In this document: in pieces, positions 24,351-46,893 of the stretch
Numbering within the stretch: position 1 is the stretch's first letter
Layout of the letters: each line of letters starts with the position of its first letter
NCBI GenBank assembly: GCA_035530615.1
Contig: DATKUL010000003.1
Span: forward strand, 186,001 to 250,000
Length of the DNA: 64,000 nucleotides
Direction of reading: 5' to 3'
Origin: Candidatus Paceibacterota bacterium
GTDB taxonomy: Bacteria; Actinomycetota; Actinomycetes; Nanopelagicales; Nanopelagicaceae
Translations under genes and position numbers: made by a program
Notes under the pieces: model-generated
Told to the model about the DNA's origin: nothing
The model's input: only the letters and a program-made list of their open reading frames with translations
Database searches by the model: none

Positions 24351-24757
24351 GTTCTTGGGAGAACTCTCAGCCCATTCTTCTTTGCACAATTTGCGAGGCG
24401 TTTGTCATATGTGAGGAAAGTCATCTGTTGCCCCTTGACCCGTAGAGCAGAGGCAAGATGGATGGAATCTAGCGTGGCAAGGTTGTTTCCGGCGGCGACG
24501 TCACTTGCCCGCAAACTTAACTCTGAATCAAACTCCACTACATCAAATACGTTTATGTCTGTTTGAAACAGCTTGGCTGCGATTGCAAATTCAGTCGTAC
24601 TCAATCTCTTTCGCAAGTTGATCAAGGTTTCAGTAATAGTGATTCGAGACGTTATCCAGTGAGAATGCACATTTAGGATTGACTGACAGTCATCTGATTC
24701 AGGTTCTTGTACATACCGTTTTAACAGGGCGCTCGTCTCAACATAAAGGGAAGCCAT
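24347..24757 (-). CDS. vapC: VapC-like PIN-domain toxin
   Basis: A 136-residue PIN ribonuclease, probably the toxin of a type II system cutting RNA. Acidic metal ligands expected for PIN are seen as Glu in [10 protein letters not shown], Glu in TITETLINL, Asp in [11 protein letters not shown] and Asp in TYDKRLANC. The first is Glu where most PIN proteins have Asp. The ATG at 24757 overlaps the antitoxin stop (TAATG), so the longer frame is rejected. It is convergent with clpC. Confidence 0.85.
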
Positions 24758-25044
24758 TAGAAGCGCTCGGCGCGAGACTCGCGCAGGAGCTCGGTAGTGG
24801 ATTTTCCAGTTTTCCTTGCCTTGATCGGCTTCACTATTTGACGAGTATGCACTTTCGCTGGCGTTAGCCAACCTTCCTCAATTCCCTTTGTTAGATATGC
24901 AGGTCGTTTGACTTGAGTTACTTCTGTGGGTGAAATCTCGCAAAGAGGGCGGCCATGATGCGTAATAGTGATTTTCTCTCCAGCGTGAGCTCGGTGCAAA
25001 ATTTCTGAAAGACGGTCTTTCAGTTCGCGGATGCCAATTTCCAT
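24757..25044 (-). CDS. vapB: Phd/YefM-type antitoxin
   Basis: A 95-residue antitoxin. The N-terminal IGIRELKDRLSEILHRAHAG plus KITITHHGRPLCEISP is the Phd/YefM DNA-binding and dimer fold. The C-terminal basic tail (about 60-95) would wrap the PIN toxin. It directly precedes and overlaps vapC, as is usual. The upstream region has two overlapping palindromes covering its -10, fitting autorepression. Confidence 0.87.
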   Translation of the reverse strand: MEIGIRELKDRLSEILHRAHAGEKITITHHGRPLCEISPTEVTQVKRPAYLTKGIEEGWLTPAKVHTRQIVKPIKARKTGKSTTELLRESRAERF

Positions 25045-25079: not shown

Positions 25080-25635
25080 ATCTGGTGCCGTTCCATTTCA
25101 CGTTGCCTAAGGCGACGAGTGCGAGGATAAGGAGCACCTGAATCGCAATTGCCCAAGGCGACGTGATCTCACGGGTGATGAGCTTTCCGAGCGAGGAGTC
25201 CTTTAGCGCGCTCGCACTTGTGACGTAGAACGAATAACTAATGAGGCGTCCGCCCGCGAAGGCAATTAATAATGGTTTCAGGTCGATCCGCTTGATTATT
25301 CCAGCTCCCTCAAAGAGTTGTGCTGATGAGAGCGGGGAAATAAAGAAAAGAGCCAAGAGTCCGAAGACTCGACTCCGGTTCTTCTCGATCTGCATCCCCA
25401 TGGTTTCCATGTTGGCGACATATCCCTTTGGCAACCAATTTCGAATTGCCCGGAAGGAGTAGGCAAGGATTGTGCGCCCCATTGTTGCGCTCGCAACTCC
25501 GCAGAGGACTAGTGCGACAGGGTCCAAGTGGTATCTAATTGTGAAGAAAACAAGCAGTGACCACGTTGGTGGCGCGAATGCCGGGAGCATATTTGCGAAG
25601 GTGATTATCGCTACAACCGCCAGATAATTGGACAC
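25078..25635 (-). CDS. Polytopic membrane protein, DedA/VTT-like
   Basis: A 185-residue protein with four to five membrane segments. The N-terminal FANMLPAFAPPTWSLLVFF and the FGLLALFFISPLSSAQLFEGAG segment resemble the re-entrant loops of VTT/DedA-type or small-exporter membrane proteins, but the match is loose. GTG at 25635 is the start; TAGGCT on the minus strand (25642-25647) is 6 nt away, so it is leaderless. It is divergent from murQ and shares its -10 heptamer. Its stop codon lies in the vapBC operator. Confidence 0.6.
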   Translation of the reverse strand: MSNYLAVVAIITFANMLPAFAPPTWSLLVFFTIRYHLDPVALVLCGVASATMGRTILAYSFRAIRNWLPKGYVANMETMGMQIEKNRSRVFGLLALFFISPLSSAQLFEGAGIIKRIDLKPLLIAFAGGRLISYSFYVTSASALKDSSLGKLITREITSPWAIAIQVLLILALVALGNVKWNGTR

Positions 25636-25640
25636 ATCTT

Positions 25641-25647
25641 TAGCCTA
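25641..25647. promoter_or_regulatory. Bidirectional -10 heptamer (membrane protein / murQ)
   Basis: TAGCCTA reads TAGCCT on the plus strand toward murQ and TAGGCT on the minus strand toward the membrane protein (6 nt from its GTG). One site would serve both genes. Confidence 0.55.
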
Positions 25648-25662
25648 GACATATATTGAACT

Positions 25663-25676
25663 GTTTCCAATGAAAC
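25663..25676. promoter_or_regulatory. Dyad downstream of the murQ start site
   Basis: GTTTCCAATGAAAC has perfect 5-bp arms and lies about 10-25 bp after the expected murQ transcription start. It is a candidate operator for the RpiR/MurR-like regulator at 36014. GGAAGG (about 25704) is the ribosome site before the ATG. Confidence 0.35.
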
Positions 25677-25715: not shown

Positions 25716-26630
25716 ATGGGCGGCATTAAAGATTCATCTCTCGGCTTACTTCGCACGGAGCAGGTGAATTCCAAATTTCGGCACTTGGATCAGATGAGTG
25801 TTTCTGAACTTCTGCGTGCGATGAATGAAGGTGATGCAGAAGTCCCAAAGGCCATCGCACTTGAACTTCCCAAGATTGAACGTGCCATCGAAGCAATTGT
25901 TGAGCGAATGATGCACGGTGGGAGATTGATTTATATTGGAGCCGGAACTTCGGGCCGCCTTGGCGTGCTGGATGCGGTTGAGTGCAGACCGACATTCTCG
26001 GTTTCCGAAGACCAGGTTCTTGGATTAATGGCTGGTGGTGAACGCGCGTTGACTCATGCAGTTGAGGGCGCTGAGGATGATTTCCAAGCGGGGGAGAAGG
26101 ATCTGATTTCCATCAATCTTCGCCCCGCAGATTGCGTGGTTGGAATTGCTGCCAGTGGTCGGACTCCCTACGTCAAAGGAGGGCTGGCATACGCACGACA
26201 GGTTGGAGCCCTGACGATCGGGTTGACCTCCAATCCAGATTCGCAGATTTCTAAGGATGTGGAGCACCCTCTTGAAATCGACTCCGGACCCGAATTGCTG
26301 GCCGGATCAACCCGACTGAAATCTGGGACAGCTCAGAAGTTGGTACTGAACATGATCTCTACGATCACGATGGTCCGGCTGGGCAAAACATTTGGCAATC
26401 TGATGGTGGATCTGCAGATCACCAATGAGAAACTGCGAGATAGAGCGGTTCGCATCATTATGCAGGCCACGGACGCTCCTAACGAAAGGGCCTCGGCAGC
26501 GCTAGCGGAATCTGGGAATGAAGTGAAAGTGGCGATCTTGATGCTCCTTCTGAGCGTGGATGCTCCTAGCGCACGCGCACGATTGCTGGCGGGCTCGAAT
26601 CGAGTGCAGGAAGCGCTCAATTTAAATTAG
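25716..26630 (+). CDS. murQ: N-acetylmuramic acid 6-phosphate etherase
   Basis: A 304-residue SIS-domain lyase that removes the lactyl ether from MurNAc-6-phosphate to give GlcNAc-6-phosphate, the key cytoplasmic step of cell-wall sugar recycling. IYIGAGTSGRLGVLDAVECR holds the sugar-phosphate loop and the start of the catalytic region, and VGIAASGRTPYVKGGL and GSTRLKSGTAQKLVLNM are MurQ signatures. The C-terminal helical part is as in the E. coli enzyme. ATG 25716 follows GGAAGG; the TTG at 25698 is rejected. It heads the muropeptide-recycling region. Confidence 0.95.
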   Translation: MGGIKDSSLGLLRTEQVNSKFRHLDQMSVSELLRAMNEGDAEVPKAIALELPKIERAIEAIVERMMHGGRLIYIGAGTSGRLGVLDAVECRPTFSVSEDQVLGLMAGGERALTHAVEGAEDDFQAGEKDLISINLRPADCVVGIAASGRTPYVKGGLAYARQVGALTIGLTSNPDSQISKDVEHPLEIDSGPELLAGSTRLKSGTAQKLVLNMISTITMVRLGKTFGNLMVDLQITNEKLRDRAVRIIMQATDAPNERASAALAESGNEVKVAILMLLLSVDAPSARARLLAGSNRVQEALNLN

Positions 26631-26718
26631 TTCTGCCCTTCATCTCCCAGTAGTCCGTCCAAAAGTTATGCGAACGTTATGAGGCTCTCCGCCTAGCTCC
26701 ACTTGACCAACTCCAACT

Positions 26719-26769
26719 TTGAGGCAATGATTTCCACGGATAGACAGGGTCTATGAAGTTTTTTTTCAT
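26719..26769 (+). promoter_or_regulatory. Promoter and dyads before the oligopeptide importer
   Basis: TTGAGG (26719-26724) and TAGACA (26741-26746) are spaced 16 bp, like a sigma-70 promoter. The -10 begins a small inverted repeat TAGAC-AGG-GTCTA (26741-26753). ATGAAGTTTTTTTTCAT (26753-26769), an ATGAA/TTCAT dyad with a T-rich centre, follows at the expected start site. The rest of the 180-bp gap holds no gene. Confidence 0.4.
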
Positions 26770-26810
26770 GATGCCGCTACCGATGTCTTTCACCTTGAAA
26801 GGGGAAATAA

Positions 26811-28325
26811 GTGAAATTAGGAAAGAAGATTGCAGTCGTGGGTGTCTCTGCCGCCCTTGTGGCTGGAGTTGCTTTCGTGGCGCCTGCACAGGCCGCGAGC
26901 AAAGATCTCGTCATCGGTATCACTCTTGATATCGACAAACTAGATCCGCAGGGCGCAACCGGTTTCGGAACCGTCCGTGTACTTGGCCTGGTTTATGGCA
27001 GTTTGGTTGAAGTGGGACCCAAGCTTGATATTCGCTCTGGACTGGCAACATCCTGGGCTTTTAACGCTGCTGGCACTGCGTTGCGTCTGCACCTTCGCAA
27101 GAATGTGAAATTCCAAGATGGATCTACCTTCGATGCAACAGATGTGAAGGCATCTATCGAGAGAATTCTTGACCCCGCCAATAAGGCGGCTGCGCGCGCT
27201 AACTTGCTAACCATCAAGTCGGTCACTGTCGTCAGTAAGTACGACGTCAATTTGGACCTGACGACCCCTAATTCAGCGATTTTGGCTTCGCTAGATGGCG
27301 TCAACATTGCGATGCTTTCCAGTGATGACATCAAAGCCGGCAACGTTGGAAAGGTCGTCAACGGAACTGGGCCATTCGAGTATGTTTCTTGGGAGCCAGG
27401 TCAGTCGGTTAAGTTGGTAAAGAATTCAACCTATTGGGGTAAGACTCCCAAGTTGGATACCGTCACTTTCCGAATAATTCCAAGTGAGTCATCAGTTCTT
27501 TCTGCTCTCAATGCTGGAACAGTGCAGTTTGCAGTCATCACTGATCCATTGATTGCCAAGCAGGTTGGCAAGAATCTAAGAATGTATAAGACTCCTGCCC
27601 TTGCTTACATGGCACTTCAATTGAATGCTAGGAAAGCCCCTTTGGACAATGTAAATGTTCGCTTAGCAATTCAATGCGCGATTGATCGGGCTGAAGTTGT
27701 TAAGACCGCTCAATCTGGTGAGGGAACCGTCATCGGACCGATCACCAGCCCAGCCTACAAATCAAACCCAAATGATCGTCCATGTCCAAAGGCCAACATT
27801 GCCAAGGCCAAGCAGTATCTAACAACGGCGGGCTATCCAAACGGTCTCACCATTAAGACAATGGTTGCTCCTACCCAATTCGCAACCGCATCTGCAGTTG
27901 CACAGAGCCTGAAGGCCCAGTTGGCAAAGGCTGGCATCACCATGGATCTCGAATTGGTCGATGACTCGACTTTCGTATCTCGTTGGTTGGCTGCCGATTT
28001 CGTTACTTCCATTGCAAATAACGGTGGACGCATCGATCCAGACACGATGTACACCCGCTACTTCACCTCAACCGGCAACCTCAACAAGGTTGCAGGTTAC
28101 TCATCAGCGACACTTGATGCGCTCATGGCAAAGGGCAAGTCCACCGGCAACGTCACTCAGAGGAGAGCTGCTTACAAAGCAGTTTCTGAGGAACTTGAAA
28201 ATAATGCAGTTTGGATTTGGCTCTTCTCGCCATACGAGTACCGCGTTACTTCAAAGTCGTTGACTGGATTCATTCCGCTAGCGACTGGTTCACTTCTCGA
28301 ACTTCGCAAAGCAAACCTGAACTAA
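26811..28325 (+). CDS. Oligopeptide/muropeptide ABC importer, substrate-binding protein
   Basis: A 504-residue SBP_bac_5 family receptor. The Sec-type signal peptide (1-28, ending AQA) has no lipobox cysteine. The mature part shows the family segments LDPQGATGFGTVRVLG, YDVNLDLTTPNSAILASL, VNGTGPFEYVSWEPGQSVKLVKN and FRIIPSESSVLSALNAGTVQF. By context (murQ, anmK, epimerase) it may bind cell-wall peptides or anhydro-muropeptides; dipeptide binding is the conservative call. GTG start after AAAGGGG. A hairpin separates it from the permease genes. Confidence 0.88.
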   Translation: MKLGKKIAVVGVSAALVAGVAFVAPAQAASKDLVIGITLDIDKLDPQGATGFGTVRVLGLVYGSLVEVGPKLDIRSGLATSWAFNAAGTALRLHLRKNVKFQDGSTFDATDVKASIERILDPANKAAARANLLTIKSVTVVSKYDVNLDLTTPNSAILASLDGVNIAMLSSDDIKAGNVGKVVNGTGPFEYVSWEPGQSVKLVKNSTYWGKTPKLDTVTFRIIPSESSVLSALNAGTVQFAVITDPLIAKQVGKNLRMYKTPALAYMALQLNARKAPLDNVNVRLAIQCAIDRAEVVKTAQSGEGTVIGPITSPAYKSNPNDRPCPKANIAKAKQYLTTAGYPNGLTIKTMVAPTQFATASAVAQSLKAQLAKAGITMDLELVDDSTFVSRWLAADFVTSIANNGGRIDPDTMYTRYFTSTGNLNKVAGYSSATLDALMAKGKSTGNVTQRRAAYKAVSEELENNAVWIWLFSPYEYRVTSKSLTGFIPLATGSLLELRKANLN

Positions 28326-28332
28326 ATAAGTA

Positions 28333-28370
28333 GGGAACGGTGTGTAGATTTCTATCTCCACACCGTTCCC
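28333..28370 (+). terminator. Hairpin between binding protein and permease genes
   Basis: A 12-bp perfect stem (GGGAACGGTGTG with its complement), extended after one mismatch by 4 bp around a TTCT loop. Only a weak T-run follows, so it is more likely a partial terminator or a 3' RNA-stabilising hairpin that gives more binding protein than permease. Confidence 0.7.
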
Positions 28371-28440
28371 ATTTCTTAGCATTTCGCAGGCAAGTCTCGT
28401 AATTAATTCGAAGAATTCTTAAAGAGGGGAGTAACCGGAG

Positions 28441-29421
28441 ATGCAGGGCGTAACTAAACTGCAACGGTTCCTCTTTTCTGCTATTACCTTACGTATCTTC
28501 AGCATCATCACCACACTCTTTGGTATCTCCATCTTTGTCTTCCTGGTTCTTCGGGTCATTCCAGGCGACACGATTACCGGCTCTTTCGGGATTGAGACTG
28601 GAGTATTAACACCAGGTCAAATTTCCGAACTGCGCCATTATTACGGCATCGATCAATCCCTCTTTCTCCAGTACATCTCTTGGATGGGGAGCTTTCTGAC
28701 CGGGCACTTTGGATATTCTTTCTCAACTGGCGTCTCTGTCATGGCGTTGACCAAGTCAGCGCTACCGGTGACGATCGAACTTGCACTCATCGGCACCATT
28801 TTGGGTGTCATCATGGGTATTGCCATCGGAATGTTCAGTGCTCGTAAACCCGGCAGTTTCCGCGACTTCGGTGGACAGTTATTTGGTTTGCTGGCATTGG
28901 CGATTCCGGGATTTGTATTGAGCACTGCAATGGTGACAATCATGGCCAATGTTTTTCATTATTTTCCAAATGGTTTGGAGTACATGACACCATGGGAAGA
29001 CCCCTGGGTTAATTTTCAACAGATGATGTTTCCGGGCCTAGTCCTCGGTATCGCCGTGGCTGCTCCCATTATGCGGACCACTCGTTCAGCTCTATTGGAG
29101 ACGGTAGATAAAGATTTCATACGAACCGCCCACGGCAAGGGTGTCCCGCCACGTAAGGTGCAATTTCGCCACGTCCTTAGAAATTCTTTGATTCCTATTG
29201 TCACAATGACGGGAATTCAATTCGGGTACTTGCTAGGTGGCGCCGTAATTGTTGAGAAGATATTTGCCCTGCCAGGAATGGGCCGACAAGTCTTGGATGC
29301 GATCACCAAACGTGAGTACGCAACCGTACAGAGCAGCGTCATGATCTTTGCGATTATGTTCGTGACTATCAACGTTCTGACCGACGTCATTTATCGAAAG
29401 ATCGATCCGAGGATTAAGTGA
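28441..29421 (+). CDS. Oligopeptide-type ABC importer permease 1 (DppB/OppB-like)
   Basis: A 326-residue permease with six membrane helices. It has a large extracytoplasmic loop after helix 1 containing FLQYISWMGSFLTGHFGYS, a DppB/OppB hallmark. The EAA-type coupling loop is RTAHGKGVPPRKVQFRHVLRNSLIPIV. GGAG lies just before the ATG. It overlaps the second permease by 1 bp (TGATG). Confidence 0.93.
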   Translation: MQGVTKLQRFLFSAITLRIFSIITTLFGISIFVFLVLRVIPGDTITGSFGIETGVLTPGQISELRHYYGIDQSLFLQYISWMGSFLTGHFGYSFSTGVSVMALTKSALPVTIELALIGTILGVIMGIAIGMFSARKPGSFRDFGGQLFGLLALAIPGFVLSTAMVTIMANVFHYFPNGLEYMTPWEDPWVNFQQMMFPGLVLGIAVAAPIMRTTRSALLETVDKDFIRTAHGKGVPPRKVQFRHVLRNSLIPIVTMTGIQFGYLLGGAVIVEKIFALPGMGRQVLDAITKREYATVQSSVMIFAIMFVTINVLTDVIYRKIDPRIK

Positions 29422-30278
29422 TGAAGCGAAAAGAGGCAGGGACCAAGGGCGGACTGCACTACTACTTGCAGAGTACAAGTGGAATTATTGGGGCGATCTT
29501 GGTTTTCATTATGGTCATTGGAGCACTCTGCTCTGCTTTTGGTTGGCTGCCGCACGATCCCTTGAACCAGAATGTCAATGATGTTTTGAAGGGACCGTCA
29601 GGGAAATATTGGTTTGGCACTGATCAATTTGGCCGAGATATTTTCTCTCGAACCTTGGATGGACTTCGTCGTTCATTAACCGTCTCCATAGTGGCGGTCT
29701 CAATAGCGGCCTTTGTCGGCGTCACCCTGGGGATCTTGGGTGGTTATCTGGGTCGGTGGTTCGACATGCTCATTACGCGTCTGAGCGATGTTATTTTTGC
29801 CTTCCCTGCCATTCTCTTGGCTCTGGCGATCGTAAATAGCTTGGGTAACTCTTGGGTTGATACTGCGCTCTCCATTGCCATTGTTTACACGCCAATCTTC
29901 ATTCGAGTAGCGCGCGGGCCGGTCTTGGCCGTGAAGGAGATGGATTACGTCAAAGTCTCGCGAATTCTTGGATATTCCTCGCCGCGAATTCTCCTCAAAC
30001 ATATTCTCCCTAACGTCACTGCCCCAATTGTCGTCCAGACTGCACTCTCACTCTCTTGGGCGATCCTGACTGAGTCTGGTCTGAGCTTTCTGGGCTTGGG
30101 CACGCAACCACCTGATGCCTCGTTAGGTCTCATGGTCGCTGACGCACAGTCACTGGCGGCATTTGCGTGGTGGACTCTCGTCTTCCCATCCCTCTTCATC
30201 ACCATGGTCGTAGTAGGACTTAACCTTGTAGGCGATGGACTCCGTGACGCATGGGATCCGGCGCGGAGGAGTTCATGA
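29421..30278 (+). CDS. Oligopeptide-type ABC importer permease 2 (DppC/OppC-like)
   Basis: A 285-residue permease. The periplasmic segment after helix 1 carries HPLN-like HDPLNQNVND and YWFGTDQFGRDIFSRTLDGLRRSL, the OppC/DppC signature. The EAA loop is YVKVSRILGYSSPRILLKHILPN, and LSFLGLGTQPPDASLG follows. ATG 29421 is preferred over GTG 29418. It overlaps the ATPase gene by 4 bp. Confidence 0.93.
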   Translation: MKRKEAGTKGGLHYYLQSTSGIIGAILVFIMVIGALCSAFGWLPHDPLNQNVNDVLKGPSGKYWFGTDQFGRDIFSRTLDGLRRSLTVSIVAVSIAAFVGVTLGILGGYLGRWFDMLITRLSDVIFAFPAILLALAIVNSLGNSWVDTALSIAIVYTPIFIRVARGPVLAVKEMDYVKVSRILGYSSPRILLKHILPNVTAPIVVQTALSLSWAILTESGLSFLGLGTQPPDASLGLMVADAQSLAAFAWWTLVFPSLFITMVVVGLNLVGDGLRDAWDPARRSS

Positions 30279-31243
30279 GTACTCCGCTTCTGTCGGTAGA
30301 GAATCTCGCGATCTCCACTATTCAAGATCCACGCATCCTCATCAACGATGTCACCTTCGAGATTCGCGAAGGCGAAGCCGTTGGCGTAGTGGGTGAGAGC
30401 GGTTCTGGTAAGACGCTTACCGCGCTTTCGATACTTGGACTTCTGCCGCGCGGCGTTGCAGTGACACAAGGGTCGATAAAGTACAACGGGATTGATCTCA
30501 ACGCCATCTCAGCGGAGGAGATGCGCAAGATAAGAGGATCTGATATTTCCATGGTCTATCAAGATCCTATGACGGCGTTGAACCCCGTTATGAAACTTGG
30601 CAAGCAGCTGCGAGAGGTCATTGAGTCCCATGAAAAGGTGGATAGCAATACGGAGCAGCGGGTACGTGATGCTTTGATGGAAGTTGGCATTCCCGATGTC
30701 GCTCGCGCTATGGAGAGTTATCCTCATGAATTTTCGGGAGGGATGCGTCAACGAGTGATGATTGCGATGGCTCTCATTCTCTCTCCCAAATTACTTATTG
30801 CCGATGAGCCGACAACGGCCCTCGATGTCACGATTCAACAACAAATTTTGGCATTGGTAGCCGAAGAGAGACGCAAGCGGAACATGTCCATGCTCTGGAT
30901 TACCCATGATCTCGGAGTCGTTGCTAACTTGGTCGACAGACTCATAGTCATGTATGCCGGCCGCATTGTGGAAGCGGGTACCGTGAAAGAGATCTTTACC
31001 CATCCGCAACATCCATATACCTATGGACTTCTCTCCTCTCTTCCAACGACCGCTGATAAAGAGCGTAAACGTCTCACCTCCATTGCTGGGGTTCCGCAGA
31101 AGCCCTGGCTCGTAGGTCAATCTTGTTCCTTTGCACCGCGTTGCTTCAAAGCCACACCTGAGTGCCGCAGCACGATCCCCCAACTCGTCGGGACTCTTGA
31201 AAAGAGTGTCTCCTGCTTTCATCCCATAGGGGCCAAAATATGA
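30275..31243 (+). CDS. Oligopeptide ABC importer ATPase 1 (DppD/OppD-like)
   Basis: A 322-residue ATPase. It has Walker A GESGSGKT (about 40), the QDPMTALNPVMK Q-loop region typical of DppD, signature FSGGMRQRVMIAMAL, Walker B LLIADEPTTALDVT and switch WITHDLGVV. The C-terminal oligopeptide extension ends with the Cys-bearing CSFAPRCFKATPECR and SVSCFHP, a pattern known to hold an iron-sulfur cluster in OppD/DppD-type ATPases. Start at 30275 (MSTPLLSV) follows GGAGG. Confidence 0.93.
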   Translation: MSTPLLSVENLAISTIQDPRILINDVTFEIREGEAVGVVGESGSGKTLTALSILGLLPRGVAVTQGSIKYNGIDLNAISAEEMRKIRGSDISMVYQDPMTALNPVMKLGKQLREVIESHEKVDSNTEQRVRDALMEVGIPDVARAMESYPHEFSGGMRQRVMIAMALILSPKLLIADEPTTALDVTIQQQILALVAEERRKRNMSMLWITHDLGVVANLVDRLIVMYAGRIVEAGTVKEIFTHPQHPYTYGLLSSLPTTADKERKRLTSIAGVPQKPWLVGQSCSFAPRCFKATPECRSTIPQLVGTLEKSVSCFHPIGAKI

Positions 31244-32193
31244 GCCTAAATATTGAAAAAGTCGAGAAGCAGTACAAGATTCTTGCAACTGGCACCCTCA
31301 TTAATGCTCTCAATGGCATCTCCATTTCTTTAGAGAACGGTCAAACCCTTGGCATCGTTGGGGAGAGCGGTTGTGGAAAATCCACCCTGGCTCGTGTGAT
31401 TTCTGGCCTGGAGAGGCCAACAGTTGGAAAAATCACGTGGGAGGGTGGCGAAATTGCTGACAAGGCGAAGAATCATATGCGTCCACTTCGCTCCAGGGTC
31501 CAATTAGTTTTTCAAGACCCGTACTCATCGCTAGACCCACGCCAGCAGATTGGTGCCGCGATTTCTGAAGTGCTTACCGTGCATAAATTGGTTCCGAAGA
31601 ATCAAATCGTGGCACGCGTGGAGGAGCTTCTCTCAATCGTCGGTCTTACATCGGATCTAAAAAATCGCTACCCTCATCAACTTTCGGGCGGACAGAGACA
31701 ACGAGTGAGTATTGCGCGAGCTCTGGCATCTGAGCCAGATCTTCTCATTCTGGACGAGCCAGTGTCTGCCTTGGATGTTTCGGTACGCGCAGAAGTCATG
31801 AATCTCTTAATTGATTTGCGTGCCAAATATGGACTCACTTACATTTTTATCAGTCACGACCTAGCAATGGTGCGCTATGTAAGCGATGTAATTGCCGTGA
31901 TGTACTTAGGAAAAATAGTGGAGTTTGGTAGTTGGGATCAGATTATTGAAAGGCCGCTGCACCCTTACACCCGAGCTCTTATCGCTGCTATGCCCGATCA
32001 CAGCATTATTGGAAACCCCGAGACTCTTTCAAAGACACTTCAAGGTGAAGTACCAGATCCGGCACACTTGCCAACTGGCTGTGCCTTTCATGCGCGTTGT
32101 CCGATTTCAGTGCCGGAGTGCAGCACTCGAGTGCCTCTCTTACTAGAAGTTTCGCCGAAACACTACGTTGCATGTCCGGAGGTTAGTGAATGA
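31240..32193 (+). CDS. Oligopeptide ABC importer ATPase 2 (DppF/OppF-like)
   Basis: A 317-residue partner ATPase. It has Walker A GESGCGKSTL, QDPYSSLDPRQ, signature LSGGQRQRVSIARAL, Walker B LLILDEPVSALDVS and FISHDLAMV. The C-terminal extension has CAFHARCPISVPECS and CPEV cysteines as in OppF/DppF. It overlaps the preceding ATPase and the following anmK by 4 bp each, so the importer and anmK form one operon. Confidence 0.93.
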   Translation: MSLNIEKVEKQYKILATGTLINALNGISISLENGQTLGIVGESGCGKSTLARVISGLERPTVGKITWEGGEIADKAKNHMRPLRSRVQLVFQDPYSSLDPRQQIGAAISEVLTVHKLVPKNQIVARVEELLSIVGLTSDLKNRYPHQLSGGQRQRVSIARALASEPDLLILDEPVSALDVSVRAEVMNLLIDLRAKYGLTYIFISHDLAMVRYVSDVIAVMYLGKIVEFGSWDQIIERPLHPYTRALIAAMPDHSIIGNPETLSKTLQGEVPDPAHLPTGCAFHARCPISVPECSTRVPLLLEVSPKHYVACPEVSE

Positions 32194-33359
32194 AAGTAAT
32201 TGGAATGATTTCCGGAACGTCCTACGATGGGATAGATGTCGCCTGCTGCGAATTCACACAGGTGGGCGACGTGATCGAAGTCAAGCAAGTAGGTTTTTCA
32301 TCCCTTGAGTATTCAGATGAACTTCATCAATTGATCGCTGATTCAATGCCTCCTCGTTCGATTGATATGGAGCGAGTATGCGTCCTGGATACCTTGATCG
32401 GCCAAGCTTTTTCACGTGCCGCTCAGAAGGCAATTGCAGAAAATTCCTTTGAGCCCGATCTCATAGTTTCACACGGACAGACACTCTTTCATTGGATTGA
32501 TGCCAGCCACAAAGCCAAGGGGACGTTACAACTCGGAGAGGCTTCATGGATTGCCGAAGAAACGGGAGTGCAGGTGCTCTCTAACATCCGCTCCCGCGAC
32601 ATAGCCGCGGGTGGGCATGGGGCGCCACTGGTGAGTGTTTTGGATCAATTGCTTCTGGGCCACAGTGAAAGTCCAGAAGGTGCCCTTAACTTGGGCGGAA
32701 TTTCGAATATAACAATTGCTGGAAAATCGGTCCTTCCGATTGCCTATGACATCGGTCCGGCAAATGGATTACTTGATGCGGCAATCTCCGCCCATTCGCA
32801 AGGTCGCGTCTCCTTTGATGAGGATGGGAAAGTTGCAGGCGCAGGAACTGTTGATACCGAACTCCTCAACTCATTTCTTGCGGAGCCTTATTATGCTTTG
32901 CCCGCCCCAAAAACCACTGGCAAAGAACTATTTCATCTTCCGTATCTCATCACTCATGCAGGTCCTGTGGATTCGTGGAATATCGAAAACCTGATGGCCA
33001 CATTATTGGAGCTCACCGTCGAAACGGTGGCACGTGAAGTGGAGAGAAACTCCCTCTCAAAACTATTCATTGCAGGTGGCGGAAGTGCGAATCCGGTCAT
33101 GATGAAGCGACTGCAGGATCGCTTAACACAATGTAAAGTCTTATCGATCTCCGAATTAGGAATAGATCCACGAGCAAAAGAGTCAATCACCTTCGCGCTG
33201 ATTGGATATCTCACTCTTCATGGGTTGCCTGGCCAGATACCGAGTTGCACCGGGGCGGATGGCGAGAGACTCCTTGGTTCACTGACACCCGGCTCAGGGC
33301 CTTTTGTCGTGCCAACACCGCTTGATGTTAAGCCGGCAAGAATTAGAGTTGTGAAGTAA
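32190..33359 (+). CDS. anmK: 1,6-anhydro-N-acetylmuramic acid kinase
   Basis: A 389-residue ASKHA-fold kinase that opens and phosphorylates anhydro-MurNAc to MurNAc-6-phosphate, the substrate of MurQ. GMISGTSYDGIDVACCEF (near residue 5) and VSHGQTLFHW are the ATP/phosphate motifs, followed by LQLGEASWIAEETG, NIRSRDIAAGGHGAPLV and LNLGGISNITI, all AnmK signatures. Its coupling by ATGA to the importer ATPase gene strongly suggests the importer brings in anhydro-sugar-containing cell-wall fragments. The last 17 bp overlap the antisense GNAT gene. Confidence 0.95.
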   Translation: MKVIGMISGTSYDGIDVACCEFTQVGDVIEVKQVGFSSLEYSDELHQLIADSMPPRSIDMERVCVLDTLIGQAFSRAAQKAIAENSFEPDLIVSHGQTLFHWIDASHKAKGTLQLGEASWIAEETGVQVLSNIRSRDIAAGGHGAPLVSVLDQLLLGHSESPEGALNLGGISNITIAGKSVLPIAYDIGPANGLLDAAISAHSQGRVSFDEDGKVAGAGTVDTELLNSFLAEPYYALPAPKTTGKELFHLPYLITHAGPVDSWNIENLMATLLELTVETVAREVERNSLSKLFIAGGGSANPVMMKRLQDRLTQCKVLSISELGIDPRAKESITFALIGYLTLHGLPGQIPSCTGADGERLLGSLTPGSGPFVVPTPLDVKPARIRVVK

Positions 33360-33855
33360 CTTGGCTGCGAAGCAGTTCCATTTCCAGAGTGCGCCAACGA
33401 GGATCTGTGCGCTCTCTGCCAGTAGGTGCAAAGCCCAATTTCTTGTAGAGGCCGATTGCGCCAGGATTAGCTTTGAAAACCCAGAGTGAGATTTCACTAA
33501 ATTTACGCACTGATAATTTATCTAGTGCAGCGGTGAGGAGCGCCTGTCCAAAGCCCTTTCCGGCACTTTTTGGGTCTACATATAAAGAAAATAGGTGTCC
33601 TCGAGACGGAAAATCAGGATCGGAGCCTATGCGAGCAATTCCGATGGGAGCATCATCAATACAGGCAACGAGAGTCTCCCGATCAGCATGTGTAGATAAA
33701 GACGGTAACCAAAGTTCGTATGCTCTCTCTTCCGTCATGGCATTTCGAACTTCCTCATTCAGTACATCACGGTATGACTTCGTCCAGCAAGAACGAAAAA
33801 TCCGGACGATGGCATCAATGTCTTCCGCTGCGCCAGTGCGAATTGTGAATTCCAT
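33343..33855 (-). CDS. GNAT-family N-acetyltransferase
   Basis: A 170-residue acetyltransferase. It has the central GNAT strands VACIDDAPIGIARIG and GHLFSLYVDPKSAGKGFGQALLTAAL, the latter being the acetyl-CoA pyrophosphate loop, then NPGAIGLYKKLGFAPTGRERTD. Substrate unknown. Start at 33855 (MEFTIRTG) is supported by TAGGCT on the minus strand, 7 nt upstream. It is the only minus-strand gene inside the muropeptide region and is convergent with anmK. Confidence 0.85.
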   Translation of the reverse strand: MEFTIRTGAAEDIDAIVRIFRSCWTKSYRDVLNEEVRNAMTEERAYELWLPSLSTHADRETLVACIDDAPIGIARIGSDPDFPSRGHLFSLYVDPKSAGKGFGQALLTAALDKLSVRKFSEISLWVFKANPGAIGLYKKLGFAPTGRERTDPRWRTLEMELLRSQVTSQL

Positions 33856-33861
33856 GGAAGT

Positions 33862-33868
33862 TAGCCTA
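33862..33868. promoter_or_regulatory. Bidirectional -10 heptamer (GNAT / epimerase)
   Basis: TAGCCTA: TAGGCT on the minus strand sits 7 nt from the GNAT ATG (leaderless). TAGCCT on the plus strand serves the epimerase, whose message would have a short leader with GGAGGT (33879-33884). Confidence 0.55.
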
Positions 33869-33887
33869 CTCAATTTTTGGAGGTTCG

Positions 33888-34919
33888 ATGAATTCGGTTA
33901 GTCGCATCTCTATTCAAACTAAGTTGCGCCAACTGAAGGAACCTTTCCGAACATCCTTGCGCACTGTCACAAACTTTGAAGTAATTGAATTCAAGATTGA
34001 AACAGATGATGGATTTATTGCATACGGTGAGGCAGTTGAGACACCAGCAATTACCGGCGATACCCTGGAGATGATACTTGTTGATTTAAATGGGCCCATA
34101 AAGGAATTTCTTAGTGGTTCTACATTCTCCTCTGCACGTGAACTGTGCGCCGGTATTGCAGAGTTGTCGGTCGTATCGAGTACAAAAGCTGCTGCTGACG
34201 TAGCACTCTTCAATCTCTCCGCGGTGATGGAAAATCTATCCTTACCTGCATTTCTTGGTTGCCGAGCGCAATCTATTGCTACCGATGTGACGATTCCGAT
34301 CTCCGAGTTGGCTGACCTGTCTGCAATAATCCAGAACCGCATTGCAGAGGGATTTCATTCGTACAAAGTGAAACTTGCCATGGAGTCAATCGAGTTATCT
34401 GTTCAAAAACTTCAGTTGATCGATCATATGGTTGGGGATCTATCGAGCATTAGGGTGGATCCAAATCAAGCGTGGACAGTAGGGCACACCCTTGACTTTT
34501 TGAAAAGGGTTGAGTCGGCAGGGCTCATCATTGAATATTTGGAACAGCCAACTCCTGCGAAGGATAAGACGGCGTTAGCGCAGATTCGCCGTAATACTGA
34601 TGTGCCGATCATGGCCGATGAATCATGTTTTACCATGCAAGACCTTCATGAACTCATTGAGTTGGATGCGGTGGATTTCGTAAATCTCAAACTTCTTAAA
34701 TCTGGCGGGATTTCTCCGACACTTGAAATGGCTGAGATAGCCAAAGAAGCCGGAGTAAAAGCCCTGGTTGGAAGCATGATGGAGGGTGATCGAGGCGTGT
34801 ATGCCGCCGCAGCATTGGCGGCCACCATTGCGCCTGATGCGGTTCATGACCTGGATGCATCTTGGTGGGCGACAGATTCCCAGATCAAGTATGCCAATGG
34901 AGAGGTGAGCCTGACATGA
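33888..34919 (+). CDS. Dipeptide (L-Ala-D/L-Glu-type) epimerase, enolase superfamily
   Basis: A 343-residue muconate-lactonizing-subgroup enolase. FHSYKVKLAM holds the KxK catalytic lysine, RVDPNQAW the first metal Asp, EYLEQPTP the second ligand, ADESCF the third and VNLKLLKSGGISPTLEM the opposite catalytic lysine. This residue set fits L-Ala-D/L-Glu epimerases (YcjG/YkfB), which convert cell-wall L-Ala-D-Glu to L-Ala-L-Glu. A different dipeptide or o-succinylbenzoate synthase is unlikely because menC is elsewhere (57444). It overlaps the serine hydrolase gene by 4 bp. Confidence 0.87.
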   Translation: MNSVSRISIQTKLRQLKEPFRTSLRTVTNFEVIEFKIETDDGFIAYGEAVETPAITGDTLEMILVDLNGPIKEFLSGSTFSSARELCAGIAELSVVSSTKAAADVALFNLSAVMENLSLPAFLGCRAQSIATDVTIPISELADLSAIIQNRIAEGFHSYKVKLAMESIELSVQKLQLIDHMVGDLSSIRVDPNQAWTVGHTLDFLKRVESAGLIIEYLEQPTPAKDKTALAQIRRNTDVPIMADESCFTMQDLHELIELDAVDFVNLKLLKSGGISPTLEMAEIAKEAGVKALVGSMMEGDRGVYAAAALAATIAPDAVHDLDASWWATDSQIKYANGEVSLT

Positions 34920-36004
34920 AGCATTTGATTGATCAGACGCTTACCCAAGTCCCGGGAATGGTGCTGGGGCTCTCCGTCGGCGGAGTCAGAACAATTGATG
35001 CCTATGGAGATAGGCAAATCTTCGGACTCGATTCCCCTTTGCCCATGACAGTGGAGACATCTTTTGATGCAGGTTCGATTACCAAAGTTCTCGCAACCAC
35101 GGCTTCGATAATGCGATTGGTCGATGTAGGTGAAATTTCCTTAGATGCTAAAGCATCGAAATATTTAAGTGCATGGTCAAATTCCGATAAATACGAAATA
35201 ACGGTGCGTGACCTACTTCTCCACAGAAGCGGATTATGGGAATGGCGACCACTTTACATTTCGGTGCACGACCCTGCGATGATAGTTGAGGAAATTGCCC
35301 GGATGCCCTTGAGATATCCAATAGGTGAAGGCCGGCATTACTCTGATCTTGGCTTCATTTCACTCGGGCAAATTCTCATCTCAATAGTCGGTGCAGATTT
35401 GCCTACCTTGGTGAAGAATCTGGTTCTACAACCTCTTGGCATGAATGCAACATGGTATGCAAGGCCACGGCCGGGTGTCCCCGTGGCTGCTACATCCCTT
35501 GGGGATGTAATTGAAAAGCAGATGGTTGTTTCCAAGATTCCATTTCCAGTTCCGGAGGAAGCCACGCAATTCAATCGGTGGCGAACTCACGTGTTAGTCG
35601 GCGAAGTCAATGATGGAAATGCATTTCACCTCTTCGGAGGAGTCTCCGGACACGCTGGACTTTTCACGGATGCCGAAGATATGTTGACATTTGGCGAAGT
35701 GATGAATGCAAGTGCGCGAGATGAGGGGAGTTACTCTGGAAAAGTCACAAGTGAGTTCCTCACAACTGGCCCTGATTCTGGCCAGCAACTTGGTTTGAGG
35801 AGCTGGACTGATACTTACGAGGGGTGTACCTCTGAATTTTTTGGGCACACCGGCTTCCCCGGTGTTGTCCTTGCTTTCTCTCCGGAGCATGATTGCGTGG
35901 CTACTCTCCTGACAAACCGCCTTCACTGTGAAGGAGAAATACCCGTCACGGAACTGCTCTGGCAACCTTTTTTGAGGGCAATTCACCAGAAGATTCACGG
36001 CTAA
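34916..36004 (+). CDS. Beta-lactamase-fold serine hydrolase, cytoplasmic
   Basis: A 362-residue serine hydrolase of the class C beta-lactamase/esterase/DD-peptidase family. The nucleophile motif is SITK (54-57), the second motif YSD in HYSDLGFISLGQ (about 141) and the third HTG in FGHTGFPG (about 310). No signal peptide or membrane helix is seen, unusual for a penicillin-interactive enzyme but logical for a cytosolic muropeptide peptidase or amidase. It is translationally coupled to the epimerase. The exact bond it cuts is unknown. Confidence 0.85.
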   Translation: MKHLIDQTLTQVPGMVLGLSVGGVRTIDAYGDRQIFGLDSPLPMTVETSFDAGSITKVLATTASIMRLVDVGEISLDAKASKYLSAWSNSDKYEITVRDLLLHRSGLWEWRPLYISVHDPAMIVEEIARMPLRYPIGEGRHYSDLGFISLGQILISIVGADLPTLVKNLVLQPLGMNATWYARPRPGVPVAATSLGDVIEKQMVVSKIPFPVPEEATQFNRWRTHVLVGEVNDGNAFHLFGGVSGHAGLFTDAEDMLTFGEVMNASARDEGSYSGKVTSEFLTTGPDSGQQLGLRSWTDTYEGCTSEFFGHTGFPGVVLAFSPEHDCVATLLTNRLHCEGEIPVTELLWQPFLRAIHQKIHG

Positions 36005-36013
36005 GGGGACACT

Positions 36014-36919
36014 ATGGTTATGGATGATGGTACGAGGCAGATATCCAAAAATTACCAAGATCTTTTAGGAGATATTGCCAATTCATTCTCTTCATTTCAC
36101 GCAAGCGAGGCGGCGATTGCGCATGCGGTCCTCGATCATCCTGACGAGGTGGCTGGGATGAATATCTCTCAACTGGCGACATTTAGCGAAACTTCAGCTG
36201 CCTCTGTTGTTCGCTTTAGCAAGGCCATGGGTTTTAAGGGGTTTCCAGATTTTCGCATGGCTCTTGTCGGCGATTTGAGTCGGAGAGAGCACCTCGGAAT
36301 TCATGGAAGTGAACTTGATGGTGGTATCACCATTCAGGATTCACCAGAGGAAGTCATTCGCAAGATTTCGCAAGCGGATGCAAGAGCCATTCAATCTACA
36401 GCTGAGCGCCTCGATGTAGATAGTTTTGTGGCCACCGTTGATGCTTGGGAGAAAGCGGATGTAATTGGGTTGATCGGCGTGGCATCCAGTGGTTATGTGG
36501 TGATGGATTTGCAGTTGAAGTTGAATCGACTGGGTAAGAAGGCGATTGCATGGAGGGATGCCCATTCTGCCCTTACTTCGATCTCATTGCTCAAACCCAA
36601 TGATGTTCTGGTGGCCGTTAGCCATAGTGGAACAACCGTTGATATTGTCGATGTTATTACTGAATTCAAAGCACGTGGTGTGAAGATTGTTCTGATTACC
36701 AATGGTCTGCGCAGTCCTTCTACCGCTCTTGCAGATGTTGTCCTCTATACATCGGCCCGAGAAACCACTTTTCGAAGTGGAGCGACAGCCAGTCGCATCG
36801 CACAATTAACTGTTGTGGATTGTCTCTGCGTCGCACTGGCCCAGCGAAACTGGAGAGATACGAAGGCGGCTTTGGATCTCTCGAGAGAGGCGGTTGGAGC
36901 CCGCTCGGGTAAGAAGTAA
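36014..36919 (+). CDS. RpiR/MurR-family transcriptional regulator
   Basis: A 301-residue regulator with an N-terminal HTH_6 domain (about 15-90, helix-turn-helix around NISQLATFSETSAASVVRFSKAMGFKGF) and a C-terminal SIS sugar-phosphate domain (about 130-265, GVASSGYVVMDLQLKLNRLG and VLVAVSHSGTTVDIV). By analogy with E. coli MurR it probably senses MurNAc-6-phosphate or a related amino-sugar phosphate and controls the genes between 25716 and 36004. It begins 9 bp after the hydrolase. The alternative start is ATG 36020. Confidence 0.88.
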   Translation: MVMDDGTRQISKNYQDLLGDIANSFSSFHASEAAIAHAVLDHPDEVAGMNISQLATFSETSAASVVRFSKAMGFKGFPDFRMALVGDLSRREHLGIHGSELDGGITIQDSPEEVIRKISQADARAIQSTAERLDVDSFVATVDAWEKADVIGLIGVASSGYVVMDLQLKLNRLGKKAIAWRDAHSALTSISLLKPNDVLVAVSHSGTTVDIVDVITEFKARGVKIVLITNGLRSPSTALADVVLYTSARETTFRSGATASRIAQLTVVDCLCVALAQRNWRDTKAALDLSREAVGARSGKK

Positions 36920-36924
36920 GGAGT

Positions 36925-38292
36925 TCATTCCCCAGTGATCTTCACCCTCTGAAGTGCCTGGTCAAGTCTGGAAACTTCAACAATTTCCATACCATCTATC
37001 TTTGTGTCGCTTCCCGTTGGCACGAGAGCGCGCTTGAATCCCAGACGAAATGCCTCCGCCAATCTCCGATCGACACCGCTCACTTTTCGTATTTCGCCCG
37101 CAAGTCCGACTTCACCGATTGCAACCAGATCTCCAGGAAGTGCTAATCCTTTTGCTGCGGATGCGACTGCTAGGGCGAGGGCCAAGTCGGCCGCTGGCTC
37201 GGTTATCTTCATTCCGCCGACGGTTGCGGCGTAAACATCGCGGCCAGCAATCCTAATATTGGCGCGGAGCTCAAGGACGGCCAATGTCATTGATGTACGT
37301 GCAGAATCAAGTCCACTCGTGACTCGGCGGGCATTTCCGTAATCGTTCTCGCGACCGGCCCCGACGAGTGCTTGTATTTCTGCAAGTAGTGGGCGACGGC
37401 CTTCTAATGTCACCGTCACACACGTGCCTGGTACCGGTTCGGTGTGTCGTGAAGTGAATAGTCCAGTTGGATCCGCAACGCTTTCAATGCCACCGTCATG
37501 TAAGTCAAAGCAGCCAACTTCATCGCTTGTCCCGAAGCGATTCTTCGTTGCACGGATAAGTCGCAGTCGTGAATGGCGTTCGCCTTCGAATTGGAGTACG
37601 ACATCGACAATGTGTTCGAGCAAGCGGGGACCGGCGATTGAACCGTCCTTCGTAACATGACCGACAAGTAAGAGCGTGATGTCGCGCTCTTTTGTAAGCC
37701 GGATGAGTGCGGCTGCGACTTCGCGCACTTGAGTTACTCCGCCGGCGGCGCCTTCGGCGGCTCCACTGCTCATTGTCTGGATGCTGTCGATAATAAGTAG
37801 GTCCGGCTTTACCGAATCAATGTGCGAGATAACCGCACCGAGATCATTTTCAGAAGCAATCCAGAGAAGGGGATCGACCGCACCGATTCGCTCGGCGCGA
37901 AGCCGCACCTGTGAAGCTGATTCCTCACCACTTATGTAGAGCGCGCGCATTCCGCGCGACGCGCTCTTTGCGCAAACACTGAGGAGAAGCGTCGACTTTC
38001 CAACACCTGGTTCGCCCGCGAGAAGGATCGCTGCACCTGGAACCAACCCCCCACCAAGGACGCGGTCTAACTCCGATACACCAGTTGAACGAGCAGCAGC
38101 GCTGGAGAGGTCAACTTCACCGATAGGGGAGGCATCTTTTGTCACCGCACCGGGCACGAGCGAGAGGCGTTTTGGTGCGGCAATCTCTTCGACACTGCCC
38201 CACACCTGGCACTCTCCGCATCGACCAACCCATTTGTTGGTTGTCCATCCGCATTCGGAACAGCGGTATGGGTCCTTCTCGGGTTTTGCCAT
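36925..38292 (-). CDS. radA: DNA repair protein RadA (Sms)
   Basis: A 455-residue RecA-like branch-migration helicase for recombination. It has an N-terminal zinc finger C11-C14-C25-C28, Walker A GEPGVGKST (about 93), the RadA-specific KNRFG motif (ATKNRFGTSDEV) and a C-terminal Lon-protease-like domain (GGMKITEPAADLALALAV). It ends 5 bp from the RpiR gene tail to tail. The disA gene, often next to radA in Actinobacteria, is absent. ATG 38292 is 6 nt from a -10, fitting a leaderless message. Confidence 0.96.
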   Translation of the reverse strand: MAKPEKDPYRCSECGWTTNKWVGRCGECQVWGSVEEIAAPKRLSLVPGAVTKDASPIGEVDLSSAAARSTGVSELDRVLGGGLVPGAAILLAGEPGVGKSTLLLSVCAKSASRGMRALYISGEESASQVRLRAERIGAVDPLLWIASENDLGAVISHIDSVKPDLLIIDSIQTMSSGAAEGAAGGVTQVREVAAALIRLTKERDITLLLVGHVTKDGSIAGPRLLEHIVDVVLQFEGERHSRLRLIRATKNRFGTSDEVGCFDLHDGGIESVADPTGLFTSRHTEPVPGTCVTVTLEGRRPLLAEIQALVGAGRENDYGNARRVTSGLDSARTSMTLAVLELRANIRIAGRDVYAATVGGMKITEPAADLALALAVASAAKGLALPGDLVAIGEVGLAGEIRKVSGVDRRLAEAFRLGFKRALVPTGSDTKIDGMEIVEVSRLDQALQRVKITGE

Positions 38293-38298
38293 GGGGAC

Positions 38299-38304
38299 AG
38301 CCTA
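38299..38304 (-). promoter_or_regulatory. -10 element, leaderless radA
   Basis: TAGGCT on the minus strand, 6 nt before the radA ATG, in the 26-bp gap after the Cys-rich gene. radA can therefore be transcribed separately from its upstream neighbour. Confidence 0.5.
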
Positions 38305-38318
38305 GAGCGAAGGTCTGA

Positions 38319-39131
38319 CTAGATCCGCCCGGATGCGATTGAGGCGGGGTGGGAAAGCACGAATAGGGGGAGTTGGCGCTTTGAGAGTTCTTTGACTGCG
38401 GCGACTCTCTCATCACAGTACTTCACCAAAATGTCATAGACATCCTGGCCCAAGAGTGCGATGAGTTCGCTCCGGTTGGAGATATACACAGGTTTGAGGC
38501 CAACATGCGCCTCGGTATTACTCGTGCAGTACCAGTCGAAGTCGTCTCCGCCGTCGCCCCAGGCAAGACGTTCGTACTCGCCAATGACCGTTATTGAGTA
38601 TTCGCGCTCGCCGACTTCGCGAGTTTCAAAACTTCTACGGAGTGGAAGTTGCCAACAGACATCCGGTTTTGTATCAACGAAGTGTTTTCCTTCTTTCTGT
38701 GCGAGGTGGTGAAGTACGCATCCGAAAGTTCCAGTGAATCCTTCCGCCTCAAAACCTTTGCGATTGAGGAAGATGCATGATCCATCGACCGTTCGTGTCT
38801 TGCGTTCATTTTCTTCATCTGTCTCTGAGATTTGCAGAGAACCACCTGAGAGATCGGTATGTGCGCGGTCATAGAACTGCCACATATCGCGAGTAAGTAA
38901 ATTGGCTGCCTTCTGAACTCGAACTTCGTCGTCTTCGTCTGAGTACATTGCACCCTCAGTACAGCAACCATCATTGGGGCGATCGGCGAAAACTCCCTTA
39001 CAGCCATCTCCGTAAATACAGGTCCAATATGAAGTAAGCCAAGTTAAGTCGCACTTGTATATTTCAAGTTCGTCTTTAGGATCGGTAAATTCGATCCAAT
39101 CACGAGCGAAGCCTGGCTTTATTTCGGACAT
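38319..39131 (-). CDS. Conserved Cys-rich protein, YkgJ-like, unknown function
   Basis: A 270-residue soluble protein without a known catalytic motif. Cysteines at 27, 38, 44, 56 and 57 (including GDGCKG and DGCCTEGA) plus later ones in FGCVLHHLA, DVCWQLP and DWYCTSN suggest a metal or iron-sulfur site like that of YkgJ-type (CxnCC) proteins. The C-terminal part has two conserved-looking histidines. It is upstream of radA on the same strand, a pairing I recall from other Actinobacteria. Leaderless -10 TAGGCT (minus, 39140-39145) is 8 nt from the ATG. Confidence 0.7.
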   Translation of the reverse strand: MSEIKPGFARDWIEFTDPKDELEIYKCDLTWLTSYWTCIYGDGCKGVFADRPNDGCCTEGAMYSDEDDEVRVQKAANLLTRDMWQFYDRAHTDLSGGSLQISETDEENERKTRTVDGSCIFLNRKGFEAEGFTGTFGCVLHHLAQKEGKHFVDTKPDVCWQLPLRRSFETREVGEREYSITVIGEYERLAWGDGGDDFDWYCTSNTEAHVGLKPVYISNRSELIALLGQDVYDILVKYCDERVAAVKELSKRQLPLFVLSHPASIASGRI

Positions 39132-39139
39132 AGTCTCAG

Positions 39140-39145
39140 AGCCTA
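39140..39145 (-). promoter_or_regulatory. -10 element before the Cys-rich gene
   Basis: TAGGCT on the minus strand, 8 nt before the ATG at 39131. The divergent proC promoter lies 36 bp away. Confidence 0.4.
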
Positions 39146-39180
39146 CGGGCTATGGCTTCATAACGCACATCAGTTGCGGG

Positions 39181-39186
39181 TAGCCT
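39181..39186 (+). promoter_or_regulatory. -10 element, leaderless proC
   Basis: TAGCCT, 6 nt before the proC ATG. No Shine-Dalgarno is present. Confidence 0.5.
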
Positions 39187-39192
39187 TGAGAC

Positions 39193-46851: not shown

Positions 46852-46893
46852 TCTTCCCTATCTTGGCTGGAATTGAAGACTCGACTGGGGTAC

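Follow-up and report, generated by a model that had tools for sequence, protein, structure and literature searches.

How are wall fragments taken up by Gram-positive bacteria that have neither AmpG nor MurP? This question is open; Streptomyces coelicolor recycles N-acetylmuramic acid (MurNAc), though no MurP orthologue was found in this species (PMC5061867). A dedicated importer in Actinomycetota, Chloroflexota, and on rhizobial plasmids would give a testable answer, and a candidate is encoded at positions 25716-36919 of the DNA analyzed here, a stretch of 64,000 nucleotides (referred to as the window) from contig DATKUL010000003.1 of Candidatus Paceibacterota bacterium (GCA_035530615.1; Nanopelagicaceae in GTDB). 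The contig is part of an essentially complete genome of 2.16 Mb. We consider it probable that this locus is dedicated to the uptake and breakdown of peptidoglycan fragments that contain MurNAc, (1,6-anhydro)MurNAc-peptides without N-acetylglucosamine (GlcNAc) being the likeliest. The data support the view that its genes form a conserved unit for the breakdown of MurNAc and stem peptides; the ligand that is transported, the cleavage by an amidase, and the purpose served, be it recycling or scavenging, are what we infer from them. The features of the locus are as follows.

25629-25657, plus strand: candidate murQ promoter, TGGACA-N17-TATATT
25663-25676, plus strand: inverted repeat GTTTC-CAAT-GAAAC, possible RpiR operator
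25716-26630, plus strand: murQ, MurNAc-6-phosphate etherase (TIGR00274; 52% identity to E. coli MurQ)
26703-26731, plus strand: candidate importer-operon promoter, TTGACC-N17-AATGAT
26754-26768, plus strand: TGAA-N7-TTCA repeat, possible RpiR operator
26811-28325, plus strand: substrate-binding protein (SBP) of the SBP_bac_5 family, dedicated clade, NGGRxDPD motif
28332-28371, plus strand: hairpin between the SBP and OppB genes, position conserved in relatives
28441-29421, plus strand: OppB-type permease (PF00528/PF19300)
29421-30278, plus strand: OppC-type permease (PF00528)
30275-31243, plus strand: OppD-type ATPase (PF00005 + PF08352)
31240-32193, plus strand: OppF-type ATPase (PF00005 + PF08352)
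32190-33359, plus strand: anmK, anhydro-MurNAc kinase (PF03702, E 1.7e-104; NF007146)
33343-33855, minus strand: GNAT acetyltransferase (PF00583)
33888-34919, plus strand: L-Ala-D/L-Glu dipeptide epimerase, with all catalytic residues and the DxD known from B. subtilis YkfB
34916-36004, plus strand: PF00144 serine hydrolase (YfeW/AmiE type), predicted to be cytosolic and proposed as MurNAc-L-Ala amidase
36014-36919, plus strand: RpiR/MurR-family regulator (PF01418 + PF01380)

Gene calls and profile matches recovered all ten genes of the original prediction, together with their overlaps: the reading frames of OppF and anmK share 4 bp, as do those of the epimerase and the serine hydrolase. The GNAT gene, a conserved cluster member absent from that first reading, lies in minus orientation between the anmK and epimerase genes and overlaps the end of anmK by 17 bp. 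Because it intervenes, the plus strand must hold at least three transcription units (murQ; SBP to anmK; epimerase-hydrolase-RpiR). A single regulon, as originally proposed, is still suggested by the linkage to RpiR and the candidate operators, but not as one continuous run of genes. Chance or an annotation artefact as the source of the cluster is ruled out by the family matches and by conservation.

Conservation was assessed in the 80 closest AnmK loci, which were searched with the window proteins over up to 10 kb on each flank. The importer lies directly beside anmK in 60 of the 80 (Actinomycetota, Chloroflexota); locus L042, with its Opp genes more than 5 kb away and on the opposite strand, was left out of this count. 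Over all searches, including those described below, at least three phyla are represented, and the cluster reaches far beyond this genome, as the original prediction had implied. Among the 50 long importer-bearing loci, the hydrolase is found in 47 and RpiR in 46. The 10 long loci of the Nanopelagicales type carry the hydrolase (10), GNAT (10), and the epimerase (9); the 40 long loci outside Nanopelagicales (L042 counted) carry the hydrolase (37), RpiR (38), MurQ (33), GNAT (20), and the epimerase (12).

The gene order of the Nanopelagicales-type loci is mostly that of the window, with RpiR shifted between murQ and the SBP gene in a few. Other Actinomycetota show the order RpiR (minus strand) // SBP-OppB-OppC-MurQ-AnmK-[GNAT]-[epimerase]-hydrolase-OppD-OppF, and the Chloroflexota loci L043 and L050 have the core SBP-OppB-OppC-MurQ-AnmK-OppD-OppF in common with it. 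In most loci of the SBP-OppB-OppC-MurQ-AnmK order the MurQ and AnmK genes overlap by 4 bp or 1 bp, so that translational coupling is kept despite the changed order.

Loci chosen by AnmK might carry an ascertainment bias; searches starting from the SBP were therefore run, and each top match that was examined proved to be AnmK-linked. In the host family (SBP search, 60 relatives), the SBP clade and AnmK are both present in 10 of 37 genomes and both absent from the other 27. The chance of such co-occurrence would be 3e-9 if the family members were independent; their kinship makes this figure overstate the significance, but presence within the genus is patchy. The only other phylum-wide SBP match (G175) has the whole cluster. 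A search of plasmids with the SBP matched Nonomuraea, Embleya, and Rhizobium records, among them Rhizobium jaguaris pRCCGE525c with the order RpiR // MurA-like - BadF kinase - MurQ - SBP - OppB - OppC - OppDF - hydrolase - AnmK. The same cluster occurs in large Nonomuraea, Microbacterium, and Rhizobium genomes and so is not peculiar to streamlined bacteria.

Several variants were seen. The Rhizobium plasmid cluster includes a MurA-like gene of the EPSP-synthase family and a BadF/NagK-like kinase gene (L138:6258-8623). Thermomicrobium roseum has a DUF1028 protein with a PG_binding_2 domain directly 3' of the importer permeases of its AnmK cluster (L139:2809-3711). In some Micrococcales, an MFS transporter gene lies between AnmK (or GNAT) and the remaining cluster (L045:11176-12357, L067:11645-13120) and possibly encodes a second muropeptide transporter. 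AnmK loci devoid of both importer and MurQ occur in several Microbacterium genomes; in one of this genus, the neighbours of AnmK are a ROK kinase gene, a HAD hydrolase gene, and a gene resembling GHL10 glycoside hydrolases (L057:8455-14949). A metagenome-assembled genome labelled Streptomycetaceae (L037) has a Nanopelagicales-type cluster, and its SBP groups with that of Ca. Planktophila L026; the taxonomic label is probably wrong.

In the sugar branch, MurQ and AnmK are full-length matches above the equivalog cut-offs of TIGR00274 (382 vs. 302 bits) and NF007146 (506.8 vs. 440 bits), respectively. The products of MurQ are D-lactate and GlcNAc-6-phosphate (PMC5061867), so genes for NagA, NagB-II, and D-lactate dehydrogenase in the neighborhood fit full catabolism. 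In the host genome, NagA and NagB-II are encoded adjacently at C1:159.9 kb, and a 931-residue FAD/Fe-S oxidase encoded near C1:7-10 kb has 51% identity to one adjoining the cluster in Psychromicrobium (L070). Many relatives have D-lactate dehydrogenase-type (PF02913) genes, in two architectures, next to the cluster; in L020 and L026, NagA and NagB-II are also beside it, and in other relatives a sugar ABC (ATP-binding cassette) importer and a BadF kinase resembling NagK come after it. Thermomicrobium roseum encodes a NagB-type SIS protein, NagA, the hydrolase, and AnmK consecutively; a BadF kinase, MurQ, and a protein annotated as beta-N-acetylhexosaminidase are encoded close to this row.

For the peptide branch, the nearest solved structure to the epimerase is the B. 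subtilis L-Ala-D/L-Glu epimerase (1jpm/1tkk, E 3e-51). Its KxK motif, the D/E/D metal ligands, the lysine on the opposite face, the DxD that holds the dipeptide amine, and the LR motif are all present, and K160, K162, D191, E219, D244, K268, D321, and D323 do not vary among 17 sequences, one of them E. coli YcjG. The scores are below the NCBIfam equivalog cut-offs (NF041118, 175 vs. 500 bits; NF011708, 89 vs. 343 bits), each of these models covering a single lineage.

The biochemistry would be the same if the system mainly recycled the turnover of the host's own wall rather than foreign debris, and only the physiological role would differ. We give this possibility considerable weight, though somewhat less than an even chance. 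Recycling of MurNAc from the cell's own wall has been shown in Gram-positives including S. coelicolor (PMC5061867), and actinobacteria produce lytic enzymes of their own; on the other hand, the patchy distribution within one genus (8 of 21 genomes, the window's own included), the location on a Rhizobium plasmid, and the added NagA, NagB-II, and D-lactate dehydrogenase have the look of an optional catabolic trait.

The absence of NagZ, AmpD, and LdcA, noted at first for the locus only, holds for the whole host genome, in which family searches retrieved no member of GH3 (NagZ), Amidase_2 (AmpD), or Peptidase_S66 (LdcA); AmpG and MurP were not searched genome-wide. That one of the three is encoded elsewhere is thereby ruled out. 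From the missing GH3 it would seem that the fragment is imported free of GlcNAc, GH3 being the hexosaminidase family searched. The likeliest replacement for AmpD, we propose, is the serine hydrolase, acting as a cytosolic AmiE-like amidase, a role not considered in the original prediction. This proposal is made because of its kinship with YfeW and AmiE, the lack of Amidase_2, and the hydrophobic segment with which the only other PF00144 protein of the host genome starts. The hydrolase keeps the PF00144 motifs SxxK (S54, K57), Y142, and H311xG (G313), and so agrees in fold and motifs (PF00144, SxxK, Tyr, H/KxG) with AmiE-type proteins; its AlphaFold2 (AF2) model has a pLDDT of 97.6, with the R61 DD-peptidase among the top fold matches. 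It can be aligned (26% identity, E 2e-31) with E. coli YfeW, the product of the third gene in the murQ operon. AmiE of the B. subtilis murQRP operon, likewise of PF00144 (PMC10653849), is a MurNAc-L-Ala amidase (PMC5061867). The median N-terminal hydrophobicity of the cluster hydrolases (0.83) is close to that of AnmK (0.87), whereas the SBPs reach 2.1 and E. coli YfeW 1.8; judged by this, the hydrolase would have no export signal and hence be cytosolic.

The SBP looks specialized by its sequence. A tree was computed from 54 cluster SBPs, the eight SBP_bac_5 paralogues of the host genome, and E. coli OppA, MppA, DppA, GsiB, and YejA. All 54 cluster SBPs form one clade (support 98/94), separate from the paralogues and the E. 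coli proteins; the outgroup branches are long, and YejA is far off on one of them. In OppA, DppA, and MppA, the peptide is anchored by its free alpha-amine to an Asp (D445 in OppA, D436 in DppA, precursor numbering). A DppA variant with R383D and D436R has been studied structurally (entry 8z1z, listed among the structure matches). In the alignment, the position of this anchor is Gly in 53 of the 54 cluster SBPs, within a near-invariant NGGRxDPD. The cluster SBPs thus lack the residue that anchors the peptide amine, which makes plain peptides unlikely ligands. Its loss fits a muramyl peptide, the amine of which is bound to the lactyl group, and it fits a sugar equally. The AF2 model of the SBP has a pLDDT of 90, and its Foldseek neighbours bind peptide, glutathione, opine, metal, or sialic acid; the ligand is not fixed by this search because neighbours of so many ligand types score alike.

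Free amino sugars or disaccharides (anhMurNAc, MurNAc, GlcNAc-anhMurNAc) might accordingly be the cargo of the importer, with the peptide removed extracellularly and with hydrolase and epimerase serving separately imported peptides. Opine and sialic-acid binders among the structural neighbours point that way, loss of the anchor Asp is what one would expect with any ligand that has no free peptide N-terminus, AnmK and MurQ act on the sugar only, and the epimerase is frequently absent. We nevertheless regard this as unlikely in view of a hydrolase that is found almost as regularly as AnmK and lacks an export signal, and of a genome without a GH3 enzyme to split GlcNAc-anhMurNAc (again with GH3 as the hexosaminidase family searched). 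That an ordinary di- or tripeptide importer merely shares locus and regulator with MurNAc catabolism and brings in only L-Ala-D-Glu-containing peptides is very improbable: its subunits do resemble Dpp/Opp in profile matches, L-Ala-D-Glu is the epimerase substrate, and the murein tripeptide of E. coli enters via MppA-Opp, but the amine-binding Asp is replaced, the SBP clade stands apart from DppA, OppA, and MppA and strictly co-occurs with AnmK, and the epimerase is less conserved in the clusters than AnmK and MurQ. Both the exchange of Asp for Gly and the distinct SBP clade speak against a generic Dpp importer.

For a system dedicated to MurNAc-peptides, we envisage the following route. The SBP would capture the fragment and OppBCDF would import it; the cytosolic PF00144 hydrolase would then cut the lactyl-L-Ala amide, which is the job of AmpD elsewhere. 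By strong family assignment, AnmK would convert anhydro-MurNAc to MurNAc-6-phosphate and MurQ would convert this to GlcNAc-6-phosphate and D-lactate. NagA, NagB-II, and D-lactate dehydrogenase, assigned by family and encoded elsewhere in the genome (in-cluster in relatives), would lead both products into central metabolism. After trimming by peptidases, the epimerase, with its strong residue match, would turn L-Ala-D-Glu into L-Ala-L-Glu. RpiR would probably act as a repressor at the promoters of murQ and the importer and be released by a MurNAc or GlcNAc phosphate.

Several points weigh against this scheme. The epimerase is missing from many otherwise complete clusters (only 12 of the 40 outside Nanopelagicales have it), which makes the peptide branch optional, and six Nonomuraea, Knoellia, and Streptomyces clusters have no nearby MurQ. 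PF00144 also holds esterases, DD-peptidases, and beta-lactamases, and the amidase activity of the hydrolase is borrowed from AmiE, to which it would be related by family, not by direct sequence comparison. Besides the hydrolase, a CwlM-like Amidase_3 protein encoded in the genome is an amidase candidate and lacks a signal too. Sugars, opines, or metals are bound by some members of SBP_bac_5, so that a free amino sugar is a possible ligand. Finally, GNAT has no role in the scheme.

With ABC importer, AnmK, and MurQ clustered and the NagZ, AmpD, and LdcA families absent, the route differs, as predicted, from those using AmpG/NagZ/AmpD/LdcA and from those using the phosphotransferase system (PTS) protein MurP. 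Among the closest precedents is YejBEF-YepA of Agrobacterium (Rhizobiales/Rhodobacterales), which imports anhydro-muropeptides (PMC9790009). It is likewise an Opp-type ABC importer with a muropeptide-specialized SBP that substitutes for AmpG, and its anhydroMurNAc products also go to AnmK. However, its hosts have ampD and nagZ and convert MurNAc to UDP-MurNAc via MupP/AmgK/MurU, and yejABEF is not reported with murQ or anmK, whereas here importer, AnmK, MurQ, hydrolase, and regulator make up one cluster. The Rhizobium plasmid carries this cluster type.

The B. subtilis operon murQRP-amiE-nagZ-ybbC (PMC5061867, PMC10653849) shares MurQ, an RpiR-type MurR, and a PF00144 hydrolase, but there the PTS protein MurP imports free MurNAc after extracellular digestion, NagZ is present, and no AnmK is listed; the present cluster has an ABC importer, AnmK, and a hydrolase without export signal. 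E. coli murR/murQ-murP-yfeW similarly encodes MurR and MurQ homologues and the related PF00144 protein YfeW, together with a PTS MurP; unlike the cluster hydrolase, YfeW starts with a hydrophobic stretch resembling a signal, and anmK, ampG, ampD, nagZ, and ldcA are present but located elsewhere. With MppA-OppBCDF and YcjG/MpaA, E. coli also has Opp-type import of a murein peptide and an L-Ala-D/L-Glu epimerase, but MppA keeps the amine-binding Asp, belongs with OppA, and is not linked to MurQ or AnmK. No description of the present cluster was found in open-access PMC text; provisionally, it combines features of YejBEF-YepA, B. subtilis murQRP-amiE-nagZ, and E. coli murQP-yfeW in a manner not found in that literature.

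We tentatively suggest, at odds not quite even, that a horizontally spread cassette provides a further route of muropeptide import beside AmpG, MurP, and YejBEF-YepA, with an SBP for amine-blocked MurNAc-peptides and a cytosolic penicillin-fold serine amidase in place of the zinc enzyme AmpD, so that wall fragments would serve as sources of carbon and nitrogen. A dedicated importer of the kind described would imply that fresh water and soil hold muropeptides that can be exploited as nutrients, and the PF00144 hydrolases recurrently linked to murQ would gain a testable function.

As to regulation, the regulator has the RpiR helix-turn-helix (PF01418) and SIS (PF01380) domains and 32% identity to E. 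coli MurR. With 125.8 bits against a cut-off of 408 for the MurR equivalog NF012026, it is a member of the same family and at most a putative orthologue. Upstream of the SBP gene, TTGACC-N17-AATGAT and TGAA-N7-TTCA are kept in 6 of 6 loci, the remaining intergenic DNA being unconserved; the GTTTC-N4-GAAAC repeat upstream of murQ recurs in L019 and, in degenerate form, in L020. Both repeats may be RpiR sites. They differ from each other, and no operator was found that the two promoters (murQ, SBP) share or that recurs in high-GC relatives; a promoter scan gave no excess over shuffled sequence. A strong hairpin between the SBP and OppB genes, variable in sequence, is present in all 13 other Nanopelagicales-type loci examined and likely sets the expression ratio.

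GNAT orthologues adjoin AnmK in most Nanopelagicales-type clusters and in half of the others (Actinomycetota, Chloroflexota). More speculatively, this enzyme may re-acetylate de-N-acetylated muramyl fragments for use by AnmK and MurQ.

The cluster is flanked by clpC (21843) and by genes that we take, from their translations, to be radA/proC (36925-40005). Close upstream, a VapC-like PIN-domain protein is encoded on the minus strand (24347-24871). Farther downstream, an open reading frame of 791 aa (41433-43808) has no Pfam match, and an XPB-type helicase (583 aa) is encoded near a 731-aa Helicase_C_3 protein on the minus strand (44127-49089).

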